Assembly: GCA_029260495.1 (NCBI GenBank)
Contig: JAJDDD010000019.1
Span: 1-64,000, forward strand
Direction: 5' to 3'
Length of the DNA stretch: 64,000 bases
Origin: Phycisphaerales bacterium
Lineage (GTDB): Bacteria; Planctomycetota; Phycisphaerae; Phycisphaerales; UBA1924
The translations under genes and the position numbers were made by a program. The notes beneath the pieces are model-generated. The model did not search any database, had not been told where the DNA came from, and worked only from the letters and a program-made list of their open reading frames with translations. Positions 20,110 to 38,346 of the stretch are shown here, one piece after another. Every line of letters starts with the position of its first letter. Position 1 is the stretch's first letter.

Positions 20110-22068
20110 ATGGCGATTGTTTGTTGTCGATTTTCACGACAGGAGCAGCGGGTTGAGCAGATCGCGCGACTGGTCGTCGTCTGTCTCGTCGTCGCAGTTG
20201 TGTGCGGTGGAGATGCGCTCGCTCGGACGGTCGCTGTGCGGGATCGGAGTGAAATTCGCCTGCTCAGCGCGGCAGATGGACAAGTTGTTCTAGCGCAGAG
20301 CACTCATGATGCGCACAGAGCGCATCGAGCGTCGGGAGGCGCGACGGCCCAGGTTGCCCTGGAGCCGGCGAGGAATGGATTGGATATCGAGTTGACGTTT
20401 GCGAACGAAGCGGGAGAAGGAGGAGACCTGGGACGAGCGGTCATTGGGCCGATCTACCTGGGGAGTGAGCTGCGCGTGCGCGACTATCAGTTGGATGGTC
20501 GATTGCGCGACGTTGAAGATGTGCGCGCGGATGTGGGGCATGGGTGGCCATACCCAGCGAAGCTGTATTCGCCGGTCATGACAGTTGAATCTGATGATGT
20601 GGCTGTGTCGGTGAGCCTGTTGTATCCGGTGTTGGAATACAAGCATGATGTTAAGTTTGTGCTTCGAGAGATGGAGGCGGGAGTCGGAGTGTGGTTCATC
20701 GATGTGTATTTAAGTCCACGGTCGTCGGATGCGCGTATGGCGTATGTGAGTGAGTTGGCGGAGGGCGAGACGAGAACATATCGGATGGCGGTGCGGGCGA
20801 CGAGCGATCGTGAGCGATGGATGGAGACGTTGACGCCATATCGGGAATATTTTCGAGGGCTGTATGGCGGTGTGAGCTATGAGCGAGATCCGCGACCGGT
20901 GCTGGGAATGTTGCTGACGCAGGAGGATCGGCTGAGCGATGAAAATCCGTACGGATTTTCGAATCAGGCGTTGCGTCCGGATGTGCATGGGTGGGGCGGC
21001 TGGGCGGACAAAATTGTGCAACTGGGTGAATCATGGGAGCGTGTACTTGTGTTCACGCCGACGGGAATCTTTCGTCATCAACGCCAGCTCAATTTTCCGT
21101 TTCTTTTTACGAGTCACTGGTTGGATGGCGACAAATATGGGCACGCGATGGGGGATGGGGTGAAAGAGCTTTCGCGCGTGCCGGGCGCGGAGTTGACGCT
21201 GGGGATGTGGTGGGGGCGATGTTTACAGGTGATGGATGGATGGGACGTTTCAACAAATGGACAGGCGCCGGCGGGCGGCGGGAATGATGAGCGGAAGATG
21301 GGCAACGCTGTCGACGCCATTGATCCGAATGCGCCGGACACAGGCCACGGGTCGTATGGGTGGGAGAGGCTGAGCCTTGAGAGCGCCGAGCACATTGGGG
21401 CGGCGTTTCAAGAGGTTGATCTCGCGGTGGAAGCTGGAGCAACGCTGATTGGTCTGGATGCGATGGTGCATTCCTACATGCCGGTCTGGGATCAGTATTG
21501 GTGGGTGCATGTGATGAAGACTCGGCATGCAGGTGTGAAGTTTTGCACGGAGGGTCGGCGCACTGACATCATGCATACGCTCGCACCGATGTTTTTCATG
21601 GCATATGAAGCGGATGGAGCGGGGATGTTGAGTGAAGTGTTTCATCGCGTGCAGGAGCCGCATTATTTGGCGGATTTTTTGCTGCCTGGACACGAAACGT
21701 GGGCAGGTTTGGTTTTTTCTCGGTACGAGTTGTGGGCGGGGCGCGAGCTTGCGGGTGGTGAGTTTGAGCGTGAGATGAGTCGAGTTTCGGATCTTGGATA
21801 TGTCCCGACGCCACTGACATCGGTGGAGCGGGAGCGGCCTTTAAATGCGGTTGCGAGTTGGCATTTTTCGGTGCCTGATGATCTTGCGCTCGCGCCGGAT
21901 CCATGCCCGGGGGATGTCAACGGGGATGGCCGGGTGAATGGTCAGGACTTGGCGACGTTGTTGGCGAGTTGGCGCACGAGCGATCCGGCGCGGGATTTGA
22001 CGCGAGATGGGGTTGTGGACGCGCATGATCTTGGCAGTTTGCTGGCTTCGTGGTCGGGGTGTTCATAA
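20110..22068 (+). CDS. Large secreted protein of unknown family, enzyme-like, with dockerin-like tail
   Basis: A 652-residue protein with a long N-terminal export signal (hydrophobic RLVVVCLVVAVVCGG at about 20-34). Residues 40-240 look beta-rich; residues about 250-590 alternate beta and alpha and are rich in Trp, Tyr, His and Asp (GWGGWADK, SHWLDGDKYGH, DQYWWVHV), as in TIM-barrel glycosidases. I cannot assign it to a known family. The tail carries two EF-hand-like units (DVNGDGRVNGQD, DLTRDGVVDAHD) ending in LLASWSGCS. GGGGAG lies nine bases before the ATG. Carbohydrate processing outside the cell is a guess. Confidence 0.65.
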   Translation: MAIVCCRFSRQEQRVEQIARLVVVCLVVAVVCGGDALARTVAVRDRSEIRLLSAADGQVVLAQSTHDAHRAHRASGGATAQVALEPARNGLDIELTFANEAGEGGDLGRAVIGPIYLGSELRVRDYQLDGRLRDVEDVRADVGHGWPYPAKLYSPVMTVESDDVAVSVSLLYPVLEYKHDVKFVLREMEAGVGVWFIDVYLSPRSSDARMAYVSELAEGETRTYRMAVRATSDRERWMETLTPYREYFRGLYGGVSYERDPRPVLGMLLTQEDRLSDENPYGFSNQALRPDVHGWGGWADKIVQLGESWERVLVFTPTGIFRHQRQLNFPFLFTSHWLDGDKYGHAMGDGVKELSRVPGAELTLGMWWGRCLQVMDGWDVSTNGQAPAGGGNDERKMGNAVDAIDPNAPDTGHGSYGWERLSLESAEHIGAAFQEVDLAVEAGATLIGLDAMVHSYMPVWDQYWWVHVMKTRHAGVKFCTEGRRTDIMHTLAPMFFMAYEADGAGMLSEVFHRVQEPHYLADFLLPGHETWAGLVFSRYELWAGRELAGGEFEREMSRVSDLGYVPTPLTSVERERPLNAVASWHFSVPDDLALAPDPCPGDVNGDGRVNGQDLATLLASWRTSDPARDLTRDGVVDAHDLGSLLASWSGCS

Positions 22069-22325: not shown

Positions 22326-23831
22326 ATGGGATTCAAGCTTGAGGCATTTGGAAGCATTGGGCTTGATGAGGCGCTGCTGCGAGCGTTGATTGAAAGACAT
22401 GAACGAGAGTCGGCGGCAGCGTTTGACTTGTTCTGGTCGTACTACCGAAATGAGATGACGGCGCACCGGTCAGTTTCTGCGGGGGGAGTGGTGACCGCGA
22501 GGAGACTTGCGCAGGAGGCGGGGTTGCCAGCTCGCCTTCGTGGCAGGAAGAATGCGCAGGGGGATGATCGAGCAAGCGCAGCGCGGGAGCGTGTGATTGA
22601 GAATGACATCGCGTGGCGGATACACGCGATGGTTGACTTCATGTTTGGGCGTCCGGTGCGCATTCGGAGCATGGCTGAGCGTGACGATCGGCGGGAAGAG
22701 ATTGAGCGCGTGCTTGACGCGGTGTTTGAGGCGTCCGGCGGGATTTCGCTGCTGCAGGACATGGGGCTGCTTGGGAATGTGCATGGGCATGTGGATTTGT
22801 TGGTGCGGGCGGATGGGTTGTTTGCGAAGGCGGCCCGGGGGCGCGGTGAATCGAGCGCGGGGCGAGCGGCGGAGTTGGCGCCTTTGGTTCGGGTGGAGTT
22901 GATCGAGGCGCCTCGCGCGATTCCGTTGTTGTCGGCGGGAGATTTTCGCCAGATCGAGGCAATGGTGGTGCGCTTTGTGCGTGAATCACGGAGCGCCCGG
23001 GCGGAAGGCTCCCTGGACTTGAGCGGACGCCATTGGACGCACAGCCGCGATGTTGAGGAAGTGATTGAAATTCACTCAGCGGCGCACCGCCAACTTTATG
23101 TGAATGAGGAGCTGGTTGGAGAGATTGCGAATCCGCTGGACGAGCTGCCGATTGCGCATGTGCAGAACATTCATCAGCCGTTTCGTTATGAGGGTCTGAG
23201 CGAGGTTGAGCCGCTGATCCCATTGCAGAATGAGTTGAATACGCGGCTGAGTGATCGTGCGAATCGCGTGACGTTGCAGTCATTCAAAATGTACTTGGCG
23301 AAGGGTCTTGAAGGCGTTGGGGTCGCGGGCGGGGCTGCGGCAGTGATTGGGCCGGGGCAGGTGTGGTGTACGGACAATGCGGATGCGAGCATTGAAGCGT
23401 TTGGTGGGGATGGGGCGTCGCCGAGCGAAGAGTCGCACATTGAAGAGATTCGGCAGGCGATGGACAAGGCGTCGGCGGTGACGCCTCTGGCGGCGGGTGT
23501 TTTGCCGGCGCGGATTGGTCAGCTTTCGAGCGCGAATGCGCTGCGCATCACGCTGATGGGGTTGCTGTCGAAGACATCGCGGAAGCAGATTTCGTATGGG
23601 CGCGGGCTTGCGGAAGTTTCGCGGCTGATTCTGAAGGCGATGGACGGCGCGGGTGTATTTCGGACGAGTCCGGAGGAACGGCGCGTGCGCGTTGAATGGC
23701 CTGATCCGTTGCCGCAGATGGAGCAGGAGCGCCTTGATGCAGCGGTGACGAAGCGAGAGTTGGGCGTGCCGGGCGAGCGCGTATTGGATGATCTGGGACT
23801 GGCGCCGACGGCGGATGTGGGGGTGTCCTGA
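22326..23831 (+). CDS. Phage portal-like protein
   Basis: A 501-residue protein resembling SPP1 gp6-type portals: an N-terminal helical region, a mixed wing domain (DIAWRIHAMVDFMFGRPVRI near 100, LVRVELIEAPRAIPL near 200), a stem region with LIPLQNELNTRLSDRANR near 300, and a crown-like C-terminus with ITLMGLLSKTSRKQ. Portals form the dodecameric DNA entry ring of a capsid. It is followed by a capsid gene, which supports the call. No terminase precedes it; the upstream gene is a secreted host protein. Codon use matches the flanking chromosome. Confidence 0.75.
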   Translation: MGFKLEAFGSIGLDEALLRALIERHERESAAAFDLFWSYYRNEMTAHRSVSAGGVVTARRLAQEAGLPARLRGRKNAQGDDRASAARERVIENDIAWRIHAMVDFMFGRPVRIRSMAERDDRREEIERVLDAVFEASGGISLLQDMGLLGNVHGHVDLLVRADGLFAKAARGRGESSAGRAAELAPLVRVELIEAPRAIPLLSAGDFRQIEAMVVRFVRESRSARAEGSLDLSGRHWTHSRDVEEVIEIHSAAHRQLYVNEELVGEIANPLDELPIAHVQNIHQPFRYEGLSEVEPLIPLQNELNTRLSDRANRVTLQSFKMYLAKGLEGVGVAGGAAAVIGPGQVWCTDNADASIEAFGGDGASPSEESHIEEIRQAMDKASAVTPLAAGVLPARIGQLSSANALRITLMGLLSKTSRKQISYGRGLAEVSRLILKAMDGAGVFRTSPEERRVRVEWPDPLPQMEQERLDAAVTKRELGVPGERVLDDLGLAPTADVGVS

Positions 23832-23926
23832 GAAAGGGGTTGAGCAACAGGGGGAGGAAGCATTGGGACGGACAAGAGCTCGATTAGACAGTGCGCGGGT
23901 GAGGCAAGAGAAAGGATGTGGATGCG

Positions 23927-24415
23927 ATGACAGTGAAAGGTGAGATGGGATCGAAGCTGAAAAGCAAAGAGTTTCATAGTGGCGGACCTGTCGCGGCGGC
24001 GGTGCGCGAGCAGGGTGATGATTCGCGCGAGCGACTGCTTGACGCAAAGGTTTGCGAGCTGGAGGAGGCGCTTTCCGCATCACAGACCGCGATCACAAAG
24101 GCTGAGCAGGCGCGAGAGATTGATGTGGCGCTGCTTCGGGCTGGGGTGGTTGATCTTGAGACAGCGAGGTTGGTGATTGAACAGGAGCTGCGTTCGAGCG
24201 CGGAGGGAGGCATCGGGCAGGCGATTGAGCGTGTGCGCGAGCGGAAGCGGTTTTTGTTTATGCCAGCGGCGACGGGGCTGTCGAGTGTGGCTACTGCGAT
24301 GAGCCCGGCGCTGCGCCCCAGTGACTCGACGCTGGTTGAAGCGGCGAAGCGCGCATCGCAGGCGGGAGACAGGGGCAGCTTGCTTGATTACCTGCGCTTG
24401 AAGCGGAAGGGGTGA
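23927..24415 (+). CDS. Hypothetical protein in scaffold position
   Basis: A 162-residue, charged, mainly helical protein with a coiled-coil-like stretch at about 30-110 (LLDAKVCELEEALSASQTAI ... ). It lies between portal and capsid, where tailed phages encode the scaffold or head-maturation protease. No Ser/His/Asp protease signature is seen, so scaffold is the better guess. The ATG at 23927 has AAAGGA ten bases upstream; a GTG at 23918 is less well placed. Confidence 0.55.
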   Translation: MTVKGEMGSKLKSKEFHSGGPVAAAVREQGDDSRERLLDAKVCELEEALSASQTAITKAEQAREIDVALLRAGVVDLETARLVIEQELRSSAEGGIGQAIERVRERKRFLFMPAATGLSSVATAMSPALRPSDSTLVEAAKRASQAGDRGSLLDYLRLKRKG

Positions 24416-24487
24416 GGCGCGGGCGAGGGTGAGAGCGGCGTTAATGAACAAAGAGACAAACCTGAGAACGAATGAGGAACAGAACAG

Positions 24488-25663
24488 ATGACATTTACAG
24501 GCAAGGCGACCTATTCAGCGGGAGCGGGGCTTCCGGAGATTGCAGAGGATGTGAGCGACATCATTGGGATCGTAAGCCCTTTTGAGACGCCGCTTCTTGC
24601 GCATCTTGGCGATCCAAGACGGGCGGCGATGGGAACGGTGCATGAGTGGGTTGAAGACTCCCTGCTGTCGAACACAGATGCGATCAATCAGACGGTGTTT
24701 ACGCCGGACGAGACGAGCGAGACCAGTGTGACGGTTGATAACGGCTCGGTGTTTCAGGTGGGCGATCAGATTCGTGTGGATGGCTCGAAGGAGGTGATGT
24801 TCGTCACGGCGATTGCTTTGGACACGCTGACTGTTGTGCGTGGGTATGGCGCGACGACGCCGGAGATGCTTGCAGACAATCAAGCGCTGACGGTAATTGG
24901 AAATGCGGCGCTGGAGGGGTCTGACAAGCCTGAGACGAAGTTTACGAATCGTGTGCGCAAACAGAACTACACGCAGATTTTCACTGCGGGCGTGGAGGTG
25001 AGCGGATCGCAGCTTGCGGCGCAGTCAATTGGGATTGACGACGAGTTGGACTTTCAGATGCAGGAGCGGCTGCGTGAGTTGCTTCGCGATTTGGAAAACT
25101 CGGTGATTAACGGCGTGGCGCCGACTGCGAACCAGCAGGGAAGTGATACGGTTCGGCGAACGATGGCGGGGATGATGGGATTGATTCAATCAAATCAGTT
25201 TGTGCCGAATTTTGGCCCGATGCCGCCGGGCGCGGGGTTTGATGAGAATTTGCTGAATGAGCCGCTGTTGAACGCTGCAATCCGTGAGATCTGGAACAAC
25301 TCAAGCGGAGTCGTGGACACGATCGTTGTGAATGGCGGGCAGAAGCGGCAGATCAACGGCTTCATTGGCGATACGCGGGCGTATTCACCGAGCGACACGA
25401 ACTTCGTGGACCAGGTGTCAACGTACGCGAGCGATTTTGGTGTGGCGCGGGTTGTCTTGAGTCGTTGGGTTCCGGAAGACGCGGTGCTGCTGCTTGATTC
25501 TTCGCGTGTGGATGTGCTGCCGCTCGCGGGACGGAGCTTCCACTTCAAGCGTTTGTCGTCGACGGGCGACAGCGAGGTCGGGCAGGTGATTGGTGAGTAC
25601 ACGCTGGAGTTTCGCAACGAGCAGGCGCACGGGGCGCTGACCGGACTGGCGATGCCTGCGTGA
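24488..25663 (+). CDS. Major capsid protein, SU10/DUF5309-like
   Basis: A 391-residue protein that resembles the DUF5309 capsid family (HK97-fold, phage SU10 type). Signs are the N-terminal ISPFETPLLAHLG-type segment, HEWVEDSL near residue 55, a small beta insertion (residues 75-125), VRKQNYTQIFTAGVEVSGSQ near 160, and the closing VGQVIGEYTLEFRNEQAHG, typical of the end of these capsids. GAGG lies ten bases before the ATG. The reading frame is intact over full length, so the protein is probably still made. Confidence 0.82.
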   Translation: MTFTGKATYSAGAGLPEIAEDVSDIIGIVSPFETPLLAHLGDPRRAAMGTVHEWVEDSLLSNTDAINQTVFTPDETSETSVTVDNGSVFQVGDQIRVDGSKEVMFVTAIALDTLTVVRGYGATTPEMLADNQALTVIGNAALEGSDKPETKFTNRVRKQNYTQIFTAGVEVSGSQLAAQSIGIDDELDFQMQERLRELLRDLENSVINGVAPTANQQGSDTVRRTMAGMMGLIQSNQFVPNFGPMPPGAGFDENLLNEPLLNAAIREIWNNSSGVVDTIVVNGGQKRQINGFIGDTRAYSPSDTNFVDQVSTYASDFGVARVVLSRWVPEDAVLLLDSSRVDVLPLAGRSFHFKRLSSTGDSEVGQVIGEYTLEFRNEQAHGALTGLAMPA

Positions 25664-25791
25664 TATTTCTTTGGGGAGGTTTGGGGTTGGGCGACACGAA
25701 CCATCTTCTCCCGTGCACTCGTCGGCGGCGCAGCGTGCGTCGTCGACGGGTTTTGGTCGGACGCGAGTTGTTGAGTTGAGAGGAGCATTGG

Positions 25792-26430
25792 ATGTCATTT
25801 GCGAAAGATCGAGACCTGCTGGTGTATGAGCCGTTGCTGTTTCGTGATGTGGCGTGGAGCGGGCAGCGCTTGCACGAGAGCGGCGGCGTGACGGTGGCGG
25901 GGACATCGCTGCTGGTGGTGGGGGCAGACTTTGTAAGCGCCGGGATTGATGCGGGACATGTTGCGGTTGTCGATGGGTTGGCGCTGGAGATTGTGAGCCG
26001 GCAGACGACGACGCAGCTGGAAGTTTCATTGTTGCGCGCGAAGCGTGATGGCGCGAATCTGCCTCCGCCGGCGGTGACGAACGGGACGATGACGGTGTGT
26101 TCGTTCGGGCCGCAGCTTGAGATGGCGCATGAGCAGTTGTTGCGCTGCGCTGGGATAGAGCTGTCGGATGCAGGCGCGACGCCTGGCGAGATGGACATTA
26201 CGAATAGCGCTGATTTGATAGGGGTTGAGGCGCTGGGGGCGCTGCACTTGATTTTCGCTGCTGCGAGCGCGATGGCGGGGCCGAACTCGTTGCTTTGGAC
26301 GAAGGCGAAGATGTATCGAAAGCGATTTGCAGCCCATCGGGATCGGGCGATGGTGGAAGTTGATCTGAATGGCGACGGGTCGCCGGACGCGATCCGGCGA
26401 TTCAACACGCTGCAGTTTGTGAGGGGGTGA
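25792..26430 (+). CDS. Hypothetical phage-cassette protein (neck or connector position)
   Basis: A 212-residue protein with no recognised domain. The middle is beta-rich (VTVAGTSLLVVGADF ... ); residues about 110-180 are helical (QLEMAHEQLLRCAGIEL, LGALHLIFAAASAMAG). The C-terminus holds DLNGDGSPD, a calcium-loop-like motif. Position directly after the capsid gene fits a head-completion or adaptor protein, but this is inferred only from order. GGAG precedes the ATG. The 128-base gap before it holds no gene. Confidence 0.55.
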   Translation: MSFAKDRDLLVYEPLLFRDVAWSGQRLHESGGVTVAGTSLLVVGADFVSAGIDAGHVAVVDGLALEIVSRQTTTQLEVSLLRAKRDGANLPPPAVTNGTMTVCSFGPQLEMAHEQLLRCAGIELSDAGATPGEMDITNSADLIGVEALGALHLIFAAASAMAGPNSLLWTKAKMYRKRFAAHRDRAMVEVDLNGDGSPDAIRRFNTLQFVRG

Positions 26431-26433
26431 AGC

Positions 26434-26859
26434 ATGCTGTGGCTCGATCCGGAAGAGGTGACTCTAACGACGCCTGGCGGTGTGATTGCGCTGGCTGGTG
26501 TAACGGCGGTCGCGGTGGATCGGCGGACGACGCGATCGGCGATTGAGTGGTCTGATGATGGGCCGCACGTTGTGTTTGCGGATGCAGCGGAGCAGCGAAC
26601 GACGATTCGAGTTGTTCGGCGCATTGATGTAGGGGAAACGGGGATCGCTTCTCAGGTGGCGCCTGGATTGGCTGCGACTTTGAGTGTGCGCGTGGCGCCG
26701 GCGCGGTCGGATGTTGGGGGAAGGAGCGTGACGAGTGAGGTGGTGGTGCTGAGCGCAGAGCATGATCTGAGCGCGAAGAGCGGGATTGAGCAGACGATTG
26801 TCATGGTGGCGGTGAGTTCGGATGGCGGAATGGATCCGATTACGGAAGTGGAGTTGTAG
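26434..26859 (+). CDS. Hypothetical phage-cassette protein
   Basis: A 141-residue, strongly beta-predicted protein that starts three bases after the previous stop. It contains VVFADAAEQRTTIRVVRRI near residue 48, a pattern of alternating hydrophobic strands like tail-tube or stopper proteins. No family is assigned. The tight spacing on both sides shows that it belongs to the cassette operon. Confidence 0.5.
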   Translation: MLWLDPEEVTLTTPGGVIALAGVTAVAVDRRTTRSAIEWSDDGPHVVFADAAEQRTTIRVVRRIDVGETGIASQVAPGLAATLSVRVAPARSDVGGRSVTSEVVVLSAEHDLSAKSGIEQTIVMVAVSSDGGMDPITEVEL

Positions 26860-26860
26860 C

Positions 26861-27244
26861 ATGGCGAGCACGTTTGCAGGGTTAGCGCTCTATAACTCCG
26901 GGCCGCACCGGTTTGTGATTCGTTCGGTGGGGCGGTTGTTTCTGCCTGCGTTTGTGATTGATGAGCTGCAAACGGACACCGCGGTGTTTGGGCCGCGCGA
27001 GCTGGCGATTATTCAGACGGGTCGACTTGTCGCGACGACGGATGCAGCGTTGTGGTCACAGGTGGATTTGATCCGGCAGCACGCGGAGGCGGCGCTCACT
27101 GGCGATCTTGTGGAGGGATCGGGGCGCACATGGATGGATATGACATTGTTGCGTTTTCAGCCTGATGATCGGGTTGATCGCGGGCGGGACGTCAGCCTGG
27201 GATATCGAGCGGATTACATTGAGCTTAATAATCCGCCGTCGTAA
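26861..27244 (+). CDS. Hypothetical phage-cassette protein
   Basis: A 127-residue protein whose ATG lies two bases after the previous stop codon begins its spacer, so the two genes are translationally linked. The sequence is mixed alpha/beta, with LYNSGPHRFVIRS at the start and a C-terminal YRADYIELNN. No domain is recognised. A minor structural or adaptor role is possible from its place in the cassette. Confidence 0.5.
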   Translation: MASTFAGLALYNSGPHRFVIRSVGRLFLPAFVIDELQTDTAVFGPRELAIIQTGRLVATTDAALWSQVDLIRQHAEAALTGDLVEGSGRTWMDMTLLRFQPDDRVDRGRDVSLGYRADYIELNNPPS

Positions 27245-27253
27245 TGGTTTGTC

Positions 27254-27553
27254 ATGGAGATCGTCATGCTTGAGGCGGAGTTGGTCGCGCCACTGACGCA
27301 GTTTGGAATGGCGGGGTTGATCGCGTGGATGTGGCTGACGGAGCGGCGACAGGCTGCGACGCGCGAGCGGCAACTGGCTGAGGCGCATGAGCGGCTGATG
27401 GAGCAGCGGGTGCAGCTTGAGCAGCTCATTCAGGTGGTGCAGGAGACGACGCGGGCGGCGACGACGCTGGAGCAGGGTCAGCGGCGGCTGATCGAATGGC
27501 TTGAGCGCGGGATGGCTGCGCCGGAAGGATCGGCGGCGCGTCGGGTTGGCTAG
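27254..27553 (+). CDS. Small membrane protein with coiled coil, holin- or anchor-like
   Basis: A 99-residue protein with one membrane segment (about residues 9-28, LVAPLTQFGMAGLIAWMWL) followed by a long charged helix with heptad character (ERQLAEAHERLMEQRVQLEQ and onwards). Small proteins of this shape occur as phage holins or spanin-like proteins, but no clear family match is visible. GGAG is better spaced for the second ATG (27266). It is the last gene of the cassette; murJ follows 67 bases later. Confidence 0.5.
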   Translation: MEIVMLEAELVAPLTQFGMAGLIAWMWLTERRQAATRERQLAEAHERLMEQRVQLEQLIQVVQETTRAATTLEQGQRRLIEWLERGMAAPEGSAARRVG

Positions 27554-38213: not shown

Positions 38214-38259
38214 GAAGGCGCGGCTCACTCGCCGTGACGGATATTCTTGCGTTAAAAAG

Positions 38260-38346
38260 CGGTGGGGGCGGGATTCGAACCCGCGAGACCCTGACGGGTC
38301 TACCGGTTTTCAAGACCGGCGCGTTCAGCCGCTCCGCCACCCCACC
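38260..38346 (-). tRNA. tRNA-Ser (anticodon UGA)
   Basis: On the minus strand an 87-nt cloverleaf is clear: the acceptor stem GGTGGGG pairs with CCCCACC and is followed by discriminator G; the D-arm follows GGCGGAGCGGC; the anticodon stem CCGGT/ACCGG encloses CTTGAAA with anticodon TGA; a long variable arm is present, as in type II tRNAs; and the T-arm holds GGTTCGAATCC. The CCA end is not encoded. Confidence 0.96.

Follow-up and report, generated by a model that had tools for sequence, protein, structure and literature searches.

Few gene transfer agents (GTAs) have been studied in detail, and these come from scattered lineages, according to passages in PMC11841831 and PMC12946183. Their genes often lie at several loci, as parts of PMC9662315 and PMC11841831 describe. 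In RcGTA and other rhodogtaviriforms of the Rhodobacterales, head and packaging genes derived from tailed phages are inherited vertically. Capsid-forming satellites of the phage-inducible chromosomal island (PICI) type have genes for the head and for packaging but an incomplete tail, and a tyrosine integrase at the element. Encapsulin shells work without portal or terminase. Here, we describe a seven-gene cassette at positions 22326-27553 of a 64,000-nucleotide stretch of Phycisphaerales DNA (the window; contig JAJDDD010000019.1, here C19). We put at roughly two in three the probability that this cassette encodes the head of a GTA-like particle of Phycisphaerae that is old, passed on mostly by vertical descent and usually split between loci. 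This reading draws on several results. Sequence or predicted fold identifies the main parts, which tend to occur together, are under purifying selection in relatives and descend for the most part vertically, and no tyrosine integrase lies nearby. In the open literature, searched by title or abstract opening, no Planctomycetota GTA was described.

The system resembles RcGTA in the origin and inheritance of its head and packaging genes. Furthermore, the structures matched by the predicted fold of g5, the fifth cassette gene, include neck and virion chains of RcGTA. Unlike RcGTA, the portal and major capsid protein (MCP) are of SPP1 and SU10 type, and the gene for the terminase large subunit (TerL) usually lies away from the head cassette. 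The Phycisphaerae system also has ABC-ATPase/GNAT and sigma-like partners and fewer tail genes, and belongs to another phylum. Tailed phages with SU10-type capsids (SU10, Pseudomonas phage tf and Sporosarcina phage Lietuvens) share its MCP family, PF17236. Some likeness also exists between g4 and the portal-tail proteins of podoviruses. However, the best broad match to an isolate-phage MCP is only 29.7% identical (over 94%), and there is no contiguous phage genome at the window. Other isolate MCPs reach 32.6% over 63%. The corresponding values are 27.2% over 79% for TerL and about 27% over 40-46% for the portal.

Head cassette and packaging module across Phycisphaerae

The cassette consists of seven intact open reading frames (ORFs) on the + strand of C19, one of 22 contigs in a 3.2 Mb genome. 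These encode a portal, a probable scaffold, the MCP and four small proteins, g4 to g7 (c2, c17, c8 and c9 in comparisons between loci). A preliminary description of this DNA had assigned the portal and SU10-like capsid, and had reported these and five small genes as intact. Both points are borne out, by profile searches (PF05133, PF17236 and PHROGs) and by the seven open, co-directional frames. The base composition is host-like, as also described; GC content is 57-62% in the cassette and 55-66% in the surrounding 20 kb. The same description considered the cassette to lack a terminase. This holds for the cassette ORFs, where none was seen, but not for the genome, in which TerL is encoded at C11:12460-13950 (phrog_2 E 9.2e-21). 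This protein misses Pfam cut-offs (PF17289 E 0.0054; PF03237 without match at the site). Hence, the name TerL rests on PHROGs and motifs. All 27 TerL proteins scanned, from related genomes and our own, contain DP(A/S)G; HxxDALR occurs in 26 of them and RGGGKT in 25. We take these to be ATPase and nuclease-type motifs.

The neighbours of TerL on C11 are sigma-like, ABC-ATPase/GNAT and terminase small subunit (TerS)-like genes. Regions fetched from 19 other genomes encode TerL proteins 37-56% identical to our own. With the C11 region included, the ABC-ATPase/GNAT gene, often as two ORFs, occurs in 19 of 20. A sigma-region-4-like gene is found in 17 and a TerS-like gene in 13, one of these non-adjacent. 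Near the packaging module, on the opposite strand, we also observed an XRE-type regulator gene, t6, in 9 of the 20 regions. It was seen in L074-L081, L091, L257, L258, L260 and L275-L277, and is a candidate controller of the module.

We searched 397 sampled genomes of the class. The MCP was matched in 172, with one match per genome in most carriers. All 44 genomes of the source family are among them, one (G329) with a weak match. Both MCP and TerL were present in 163 genomes, MCP only in 9, TerL only in 33 and neither in 192, where 22 weak TerL matches (E 5e-11 or worse) were scored as absent. The odds ratio is 105, uncorrected for kinship. A domesticated capsid, such as a GTA, using a terminase encoded elsewhere was one option raised at the outset; the TerL gene on C11 and its relatives in most carriers of the cassette agree with it. 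Another was a new protein compartment. Encapsulins are HK97-type shells exapted by the host, and an HK97-type shell gene in host-like DNA would suit an encapsulin-like compartment without DNA. However, among 81 loci with sufficient sequence upstream, 80 keep the portal, and 163 of the 172 genomes with the MCP also have TerL. A compartment is thus barely credible.

In a sample of the phylum, 43 of 294 genomes had an MCP match. A scan of named genomes returned 268 relatives, and the best 80 were all, save two, titled Phycisphaerae, a subgroup thereof or Planctomycetota. The cassette was also seen in L176 (titled Vicinamibacteraceae) and L190 (titled Cyanobacteria), which are probably mislabelled planctomycete bins. 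Nine regions from other Planctomycetota families (L247-L255) encode MCPs 43-52% identical to that of the window, within a different cassette common to all nine. This is perhaps a sister system.

The distance between MCP and TerL was measured in the 45 genomes where both have places on one contig. It ranges from 1 kb to 1.1 Mb, with a median of 35 kb: below 10 kb in 5 genomes, 10-50 kb in 22, 50-300 kb in 15 and 687-1108 kb in 3. For 15 genomes of the source family, the range is 11-296 kb and the median 66 kb. In the source genome itself, the two genes are on different contigs, and any joining of these would leave about 37 kb or more between them. Two genomes of one family have contiguous arrangements. 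In G009, the order is sigma-like, ABC/GNAT, TerL, portal, scaffold, MCP, c2, c8, c16, c10, c20, c12, c9. G019 has the same order from ABC/GNAT through TerL, portal, scaffold, MCP and c2 to c8, where the contig ends. In a third genome, G086, portal, MCP, c9 and TerL adjoin one another. Hence, the head and packaging modules are tied together.

A complete temperate prophage would be a contiguous genome with integrase and structural genes. Here, TerL is on a separate contig and neither C19 nor C11 has a match to the tyrosine integrase family PF00589 (serine integrases were outside the search), in agreement with the earlier statement that integrase genes are missing. Similarly, for 15 genomes searched in the same way, PF00589 is missing from the 20 kb to either side of MCP and TerL; the nearest match is about 28 kb away. 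The system shares with capsid-forming PICIs the pairing of head and packaging genes with an incomplete tail. It differs from them in this lack of a nearby tyrosine integrase, its usually split loci and its largely vertical descent.

Selection and descent of the head and terminase genes

Ratios of nonsynonymous to synonymous substitution (dN/dS) were calculated by NG86. Pairs were picked by closeness and share members; those lacking a gene were skipped and identical pairs give no value. All pairs are from relatives, since the window's own copy is without a close relative. For the MCP, dN/dS was 0.035-0.149 in 10 close pairs, and 0.304 in a further pair at dS 0.10. The portal gave 0.058-0.248 (10 pairs, some alignments partial) and TerL 0.093 and 0.113 (2 pairs). 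Values were 0.08-0.34 for g4 (9 pairs), 0.09-0.32 for g5 (7 pairs), 0.10-0.15 for g6 (3 pairs) and 0.085-0.333 for g7 (5 pairs). The scaffold was highest (0.10-0.55, 10 pairs). With dN/dS below 1 in every pair, the head and TerL genes are under purifying selection in relatives.

These values bear on whether the cassette is the decaying remains of one old prophage, split by rearrangement. Broken copies fit decay. In G053, the MCP match (C33:142102-142245) spans just 48 residues. In G066 (L262), the MCP is in pieces on opposite strands, and G161 (L042) has a shortened MCP match with the portal some 12 kb off. Conversely, the frames are open here, the largest dN/dS is 0.55, and the genes occur across the breadth of the class. 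We consider decay very improbable. The preliminary description had named relaxed selection with frameshifts in relatives as a sign against its reading. Close pairs show purifying selection, and broken copies occur in a few relatives (G053, G066).

Trees were built with FastTree for the 17 of 21 genomes with all four genes (portal, MCP, TerL and rpoB). The portal tree has 12 of 14 splits in common with rpoB; the MCP and TerL trees have 7 of 14 each. Mantel tests gave 0 of 2000 for all gene pairs (17 genomes). The source family forms a single clade in the portal, MCP and rpoB trees, whereas the TerL tree breaks it up; the order likewise forms one clade with portal, TerL and rpoB, and MCP is the exception. 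We conclude that descent is largely vertical, clearly for the portal and less so for MCP and TerL.

A long-lived phage or satellite lineage, occasionally mobile, could also produce such a pattern. An example would be a capsid-forming island with helper tails. MCP and TerL trees that match rpoB only in part are consistent with this, as are gaps below 50 kb in 27 of 45 genomes, contiguity in two, related MCPs on two phage-like contigs and a prophage-like element with tail genes abutting our own packaging module. Against mobility are the 18 of 45 genomes with gaps above 50 kb, the lack of PF00589 within 20 kb of the loci in 15 genomes (a search that did not extend to serine integrases), the mostly single match per genome and the portal splits shared with rpoB. 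On balance, a mobile lineage seems quite unlikely.

Cassette genes, predicted folds and locus types

The genes of the cassette are listed in Table 1.

Table 1. Cassette genes and flanking features, in window coordinates
Feature	Product	Length (aa)	Position	Strand	Evidence
g1	portal, SPP1 Gp6-like	501	22326..23831	+	PF05133 E 9.7e-19; phrog_104 E 3.6e-21; phrog_64
g2	probable scaffold, GTG start	165	23918..24415	+	weak: PF06810 E 0.094, phrog_24130 E 0.091
g3	MCP, SU10 type	391	24488..25663	+	PF17236 SU10_MCP E 3.6e-85; phrog_1328 E 2e-70
g4 (c2)	possible head-to-tail adaptor	212	25792..26430	+	position after MCP; portal-tail-like VIA-align rows
g5 (c17)	predicted tail-tube-fold protein	141	26434..26859	+	AlphaFold2 pLDDT 94.2; Foldseek and VIA-align
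g6 (c8)	tail or baseplate-like		26861..27244	+	likeness via homologue L049:8442-8882
g7 (c9)	small holin-like protein	99	27254..27553	+	N-terminal hydrophobic segment, then coiled-coil-like stretch (sequence reading)
upstream neighbour	protein with C-terminal dockerin domain		20110..22068		PF00404 E 1.7e-5
tRNA	sole tRNA found in the window		38259..38346		

The portal gene is the genome's single PF05133 match. Against PDB sequences, the portal profile had no match and the MCP profile had three. An NCBIfam match of g2 to an oxidoreductase (E 0.0014, 18 of 254 bits) looks like chance. No PHROGs or Pfam match was found for the window's own g4, g5 and g6 up to E 1. Structures were predicted for g4 and g5 with AlphaFold2. 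The g4 model (pLDDT 94.9) matched nothing in PDB or BFVD at E 0.001 or better using Foldseek. The top VIA-align row was a tailspike (Z 8.1), with 72 residues aligned, covering part of the model. Whole-length rows included podovirus portal-tail proteins, such as GP4 (Z 7.5, rmsd 3.4, 99 aligned) and that of SU10 (Z 6.8); such rows (Z 6-7.5) fall below the guide value of Z 8, amid unrelated rows. Among 43 g4 homologues, no PHROGs family was matched by more than one. Possibly, g4 is a head-to-tail adaptor. For g5, the top Foldseek match was a siphophage tail tube (8gtb, E 6e-6, TM 0.67/0.72). With VIA-align, the YSD1 major tail protein gave Z 12.5 (131 aligned, rmsd 2.7). Hence, g5 is predicted to fold like a phage tail tube, and the cassette can no longer be described as without tail genes.

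The ORF of g6 opens at 26822; the start in Table 1 is the likely one, read from homologues. The homologue named there matches DNA_circ_N (PF07157 E 2.3e-4, 22 bits against a cut-off of 21) and a baseplate hub family (phrog_184 E 6.2e-4). In PHROGs, g7 matches phrog_2429 (E 5e-4, 'involved in bacteriocin production or immunity'). It may resemble BhlA/UviB holins. Downstream of the cassette is murJ (TIGR01695 E 1.6e-86), the neighbour that had been expected there.

We compared gene content in 63 of 98 unique loci; 35 had too little flank, and 10 viral-contig loci and 3 duplicates were also set aside. The loci are mostly the 80 nearest to the window MCP, so shares are biased to the window's kin. 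MCP and g4 are present in all 63, the portal in 62, the scaffold in 61, where it sits between portal and MCP, and a g7-type gene (c9 or c33) in 55. By class, 37 are of window type, 12 are long (with c12), 12 are minimal (no c17, c8 or long genes) and 2 are partial; these counts are approximate, as some weak c17 matches are possibly spurious. From its place and alignment, c12 is a putative hub-like protein, a name that no family search returned. One gene of the long lineages encodes a LamG-type lectin (PF13385 E 5.6e-20). In a search of genomes for c12, 8 of 38 matched strongly, serving as the control. There was no match in 21 of 21 genomes of the source family, nor in nine further MCP-bearing genomes.

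Two explanations turn on this uneven tail. The system may be a GTA under reduction, in which hub and fibre-like genes were lost first, then tube-like genes, with portal, capsid, adaptor and terminase kept under selection. This would leave particles filled with host DNA, with a minimal tail or none, that deliver by another route; for example, tails could be borrowed from resident prophages or protected DNA released. We regard such reduction as possible, if rather unlikely. Alternatively, the particle may package DNA for a function other than transfer, such as programmed lysis, DNA release or killing of kin. Consistent with this, hub and fibre-like genes are missing in many lineages where portal, MCP, c2 and TerL stay, and c12 is without match in all 21 source-family genomes searched. 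However, if no DNA were packaged, there would be little reason to conserve a TerL that has motifs of ATPase and nuclease type, and the predicted tail-tube fold of g5 suggests an ejection route. A non-transfer function is unlikely.

Tail genes beside TerL on C11 were considered as the missing tail module and rejected. They belong to a separate prophage-like element, directly upstream of the conserved packaging module, that comprises L246 (G000:C2:1-8998, G000 being the source genome) and L092:1-9700 (on C11). The end of contig C2 overlaps the start of C11 by 141 bases, exactly. The element encodes a TerL C-terminal domain (PF17289 E 9.6e-10) and a distant SU10-type MCP (C2:4076-5197), both on C2, as well as HK97-gp10-like and tape measure proteins. 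A 780-residue tail protein on C11 matches 8 of 397 genomes; outside the source genome, most of its length is covered in G102 and G356 alone. The preliminary description had named a complete prophage elsewhere in the genome, with a recent partial copy of these genes, as a finding against its reading. The C2 MCP is too distant for this (E 2.7e-27 with the MCP profile, against 1.4e-207 for the window MCP). If tails are borrowed from resident prophages, this prophage-like element is one possible source.

A proposed GTA-like particle of Phycisphaerae

In the GTA-like particle that we favour, scaffold and MCP would build a procapsid upon the portal. Terminase from the separate module (sigma-factor-like, ABC-ATPase/GNAT, TerS-like and TerL genes) would dock on the portal and fill the head with DNA. 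A short or simple tail made of adaptor-like g4, tube-fold g5 and hub-like g6 might seal the portal, and release would be aided by holin-like g7. Where the loci are further apart than the head capacity, no single packaged molecule could hold the whole system. Hence, the cargo would be mostly host DNA. In the 18 of 45 genomes with a gap of at least 50 kb, the system's own genes are likely spread too widely to be packaged whole.

Passages of Kogay et al. 2022 (PMC9662315) give six features of GTAs. Three apply here. The proteins derive from tailed phages (portal, MCP, TerL and the tail-tube fold). The genes appear endogenised, at two loci that are 50 kb or more apart in 18 of 45 genomes and contiguous in G009 and G019. 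Inheritance is mostly vertical, with the reservations given above for MCP and TerL. The remaining three need experiments: a cargo of mostly random host DNA, a head too small for the complete set of the agent's own genes, and delivery of the packaged DNA to other cells. Hence, we call the system GTA-like rather than a GTA.

Several observations weigh against this reading. We infer particle assembly, headful packaging of host DNA, lysis and delivery from gene content. In the 27 genomes with gaps below 50 kb, a phage-sized molecule could span both loci. Since c12 is absent from all 21 source-family genomes searched, delivery is unexplained there. Purifying selection and vertical descent also fit a non-transfer function. 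The 7 of 14 splits for MCP and TerL, together with the lack of monophyly of the source family for TerL and of the order for MCP, make exchange possible. Two phage-like contigs encode MCPs 58-59% identical to this MCP family (L192:5970-7124 and L193:7023-8183), with no portal detected; possibly, a capsid gene was captured. Ten viral-contig loci were found in all, of which three have MCPs at this identity, one of them in a long cassette.

Distribution adds to these points. Neither gene is present in 192 of 397 genomes, and 9 genomes with the MCP have no strong TerL match. Across the 33 genomes with TerL only, the MCP profile had no matches, in a run without a control; the same profile matched known carriers in another run. 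The portal profile matched just 4 of the 33, compared with 6 of 9 MCP-only genomes and 4 of 4 control carriers. Of the 33 TerLs, 18 are strong (E < 1e-75). The other 15 are weaker (E 1e-59 to 1e-28) and may be prophage paralogues. For TerL-only genomes as a whole, the head cassette was lost, or falls in an assembly gap, or TerL is a prophage paralogue.

A system that is widespread, old and usually split, with forms ranging between a one-piece cluster with tail genes and a minimal cassette of head genes, would make steps of domestication directly comparable within Planctomycetota. An MCP together with a distant TerL provides a searchable marker. The data also suggest a way in which genes may be exchanged in this phylum, where the titles and abstract openings searched describe no such agent. 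If the GTA-like reading is true, a domesticated virus may move host genes between cells.

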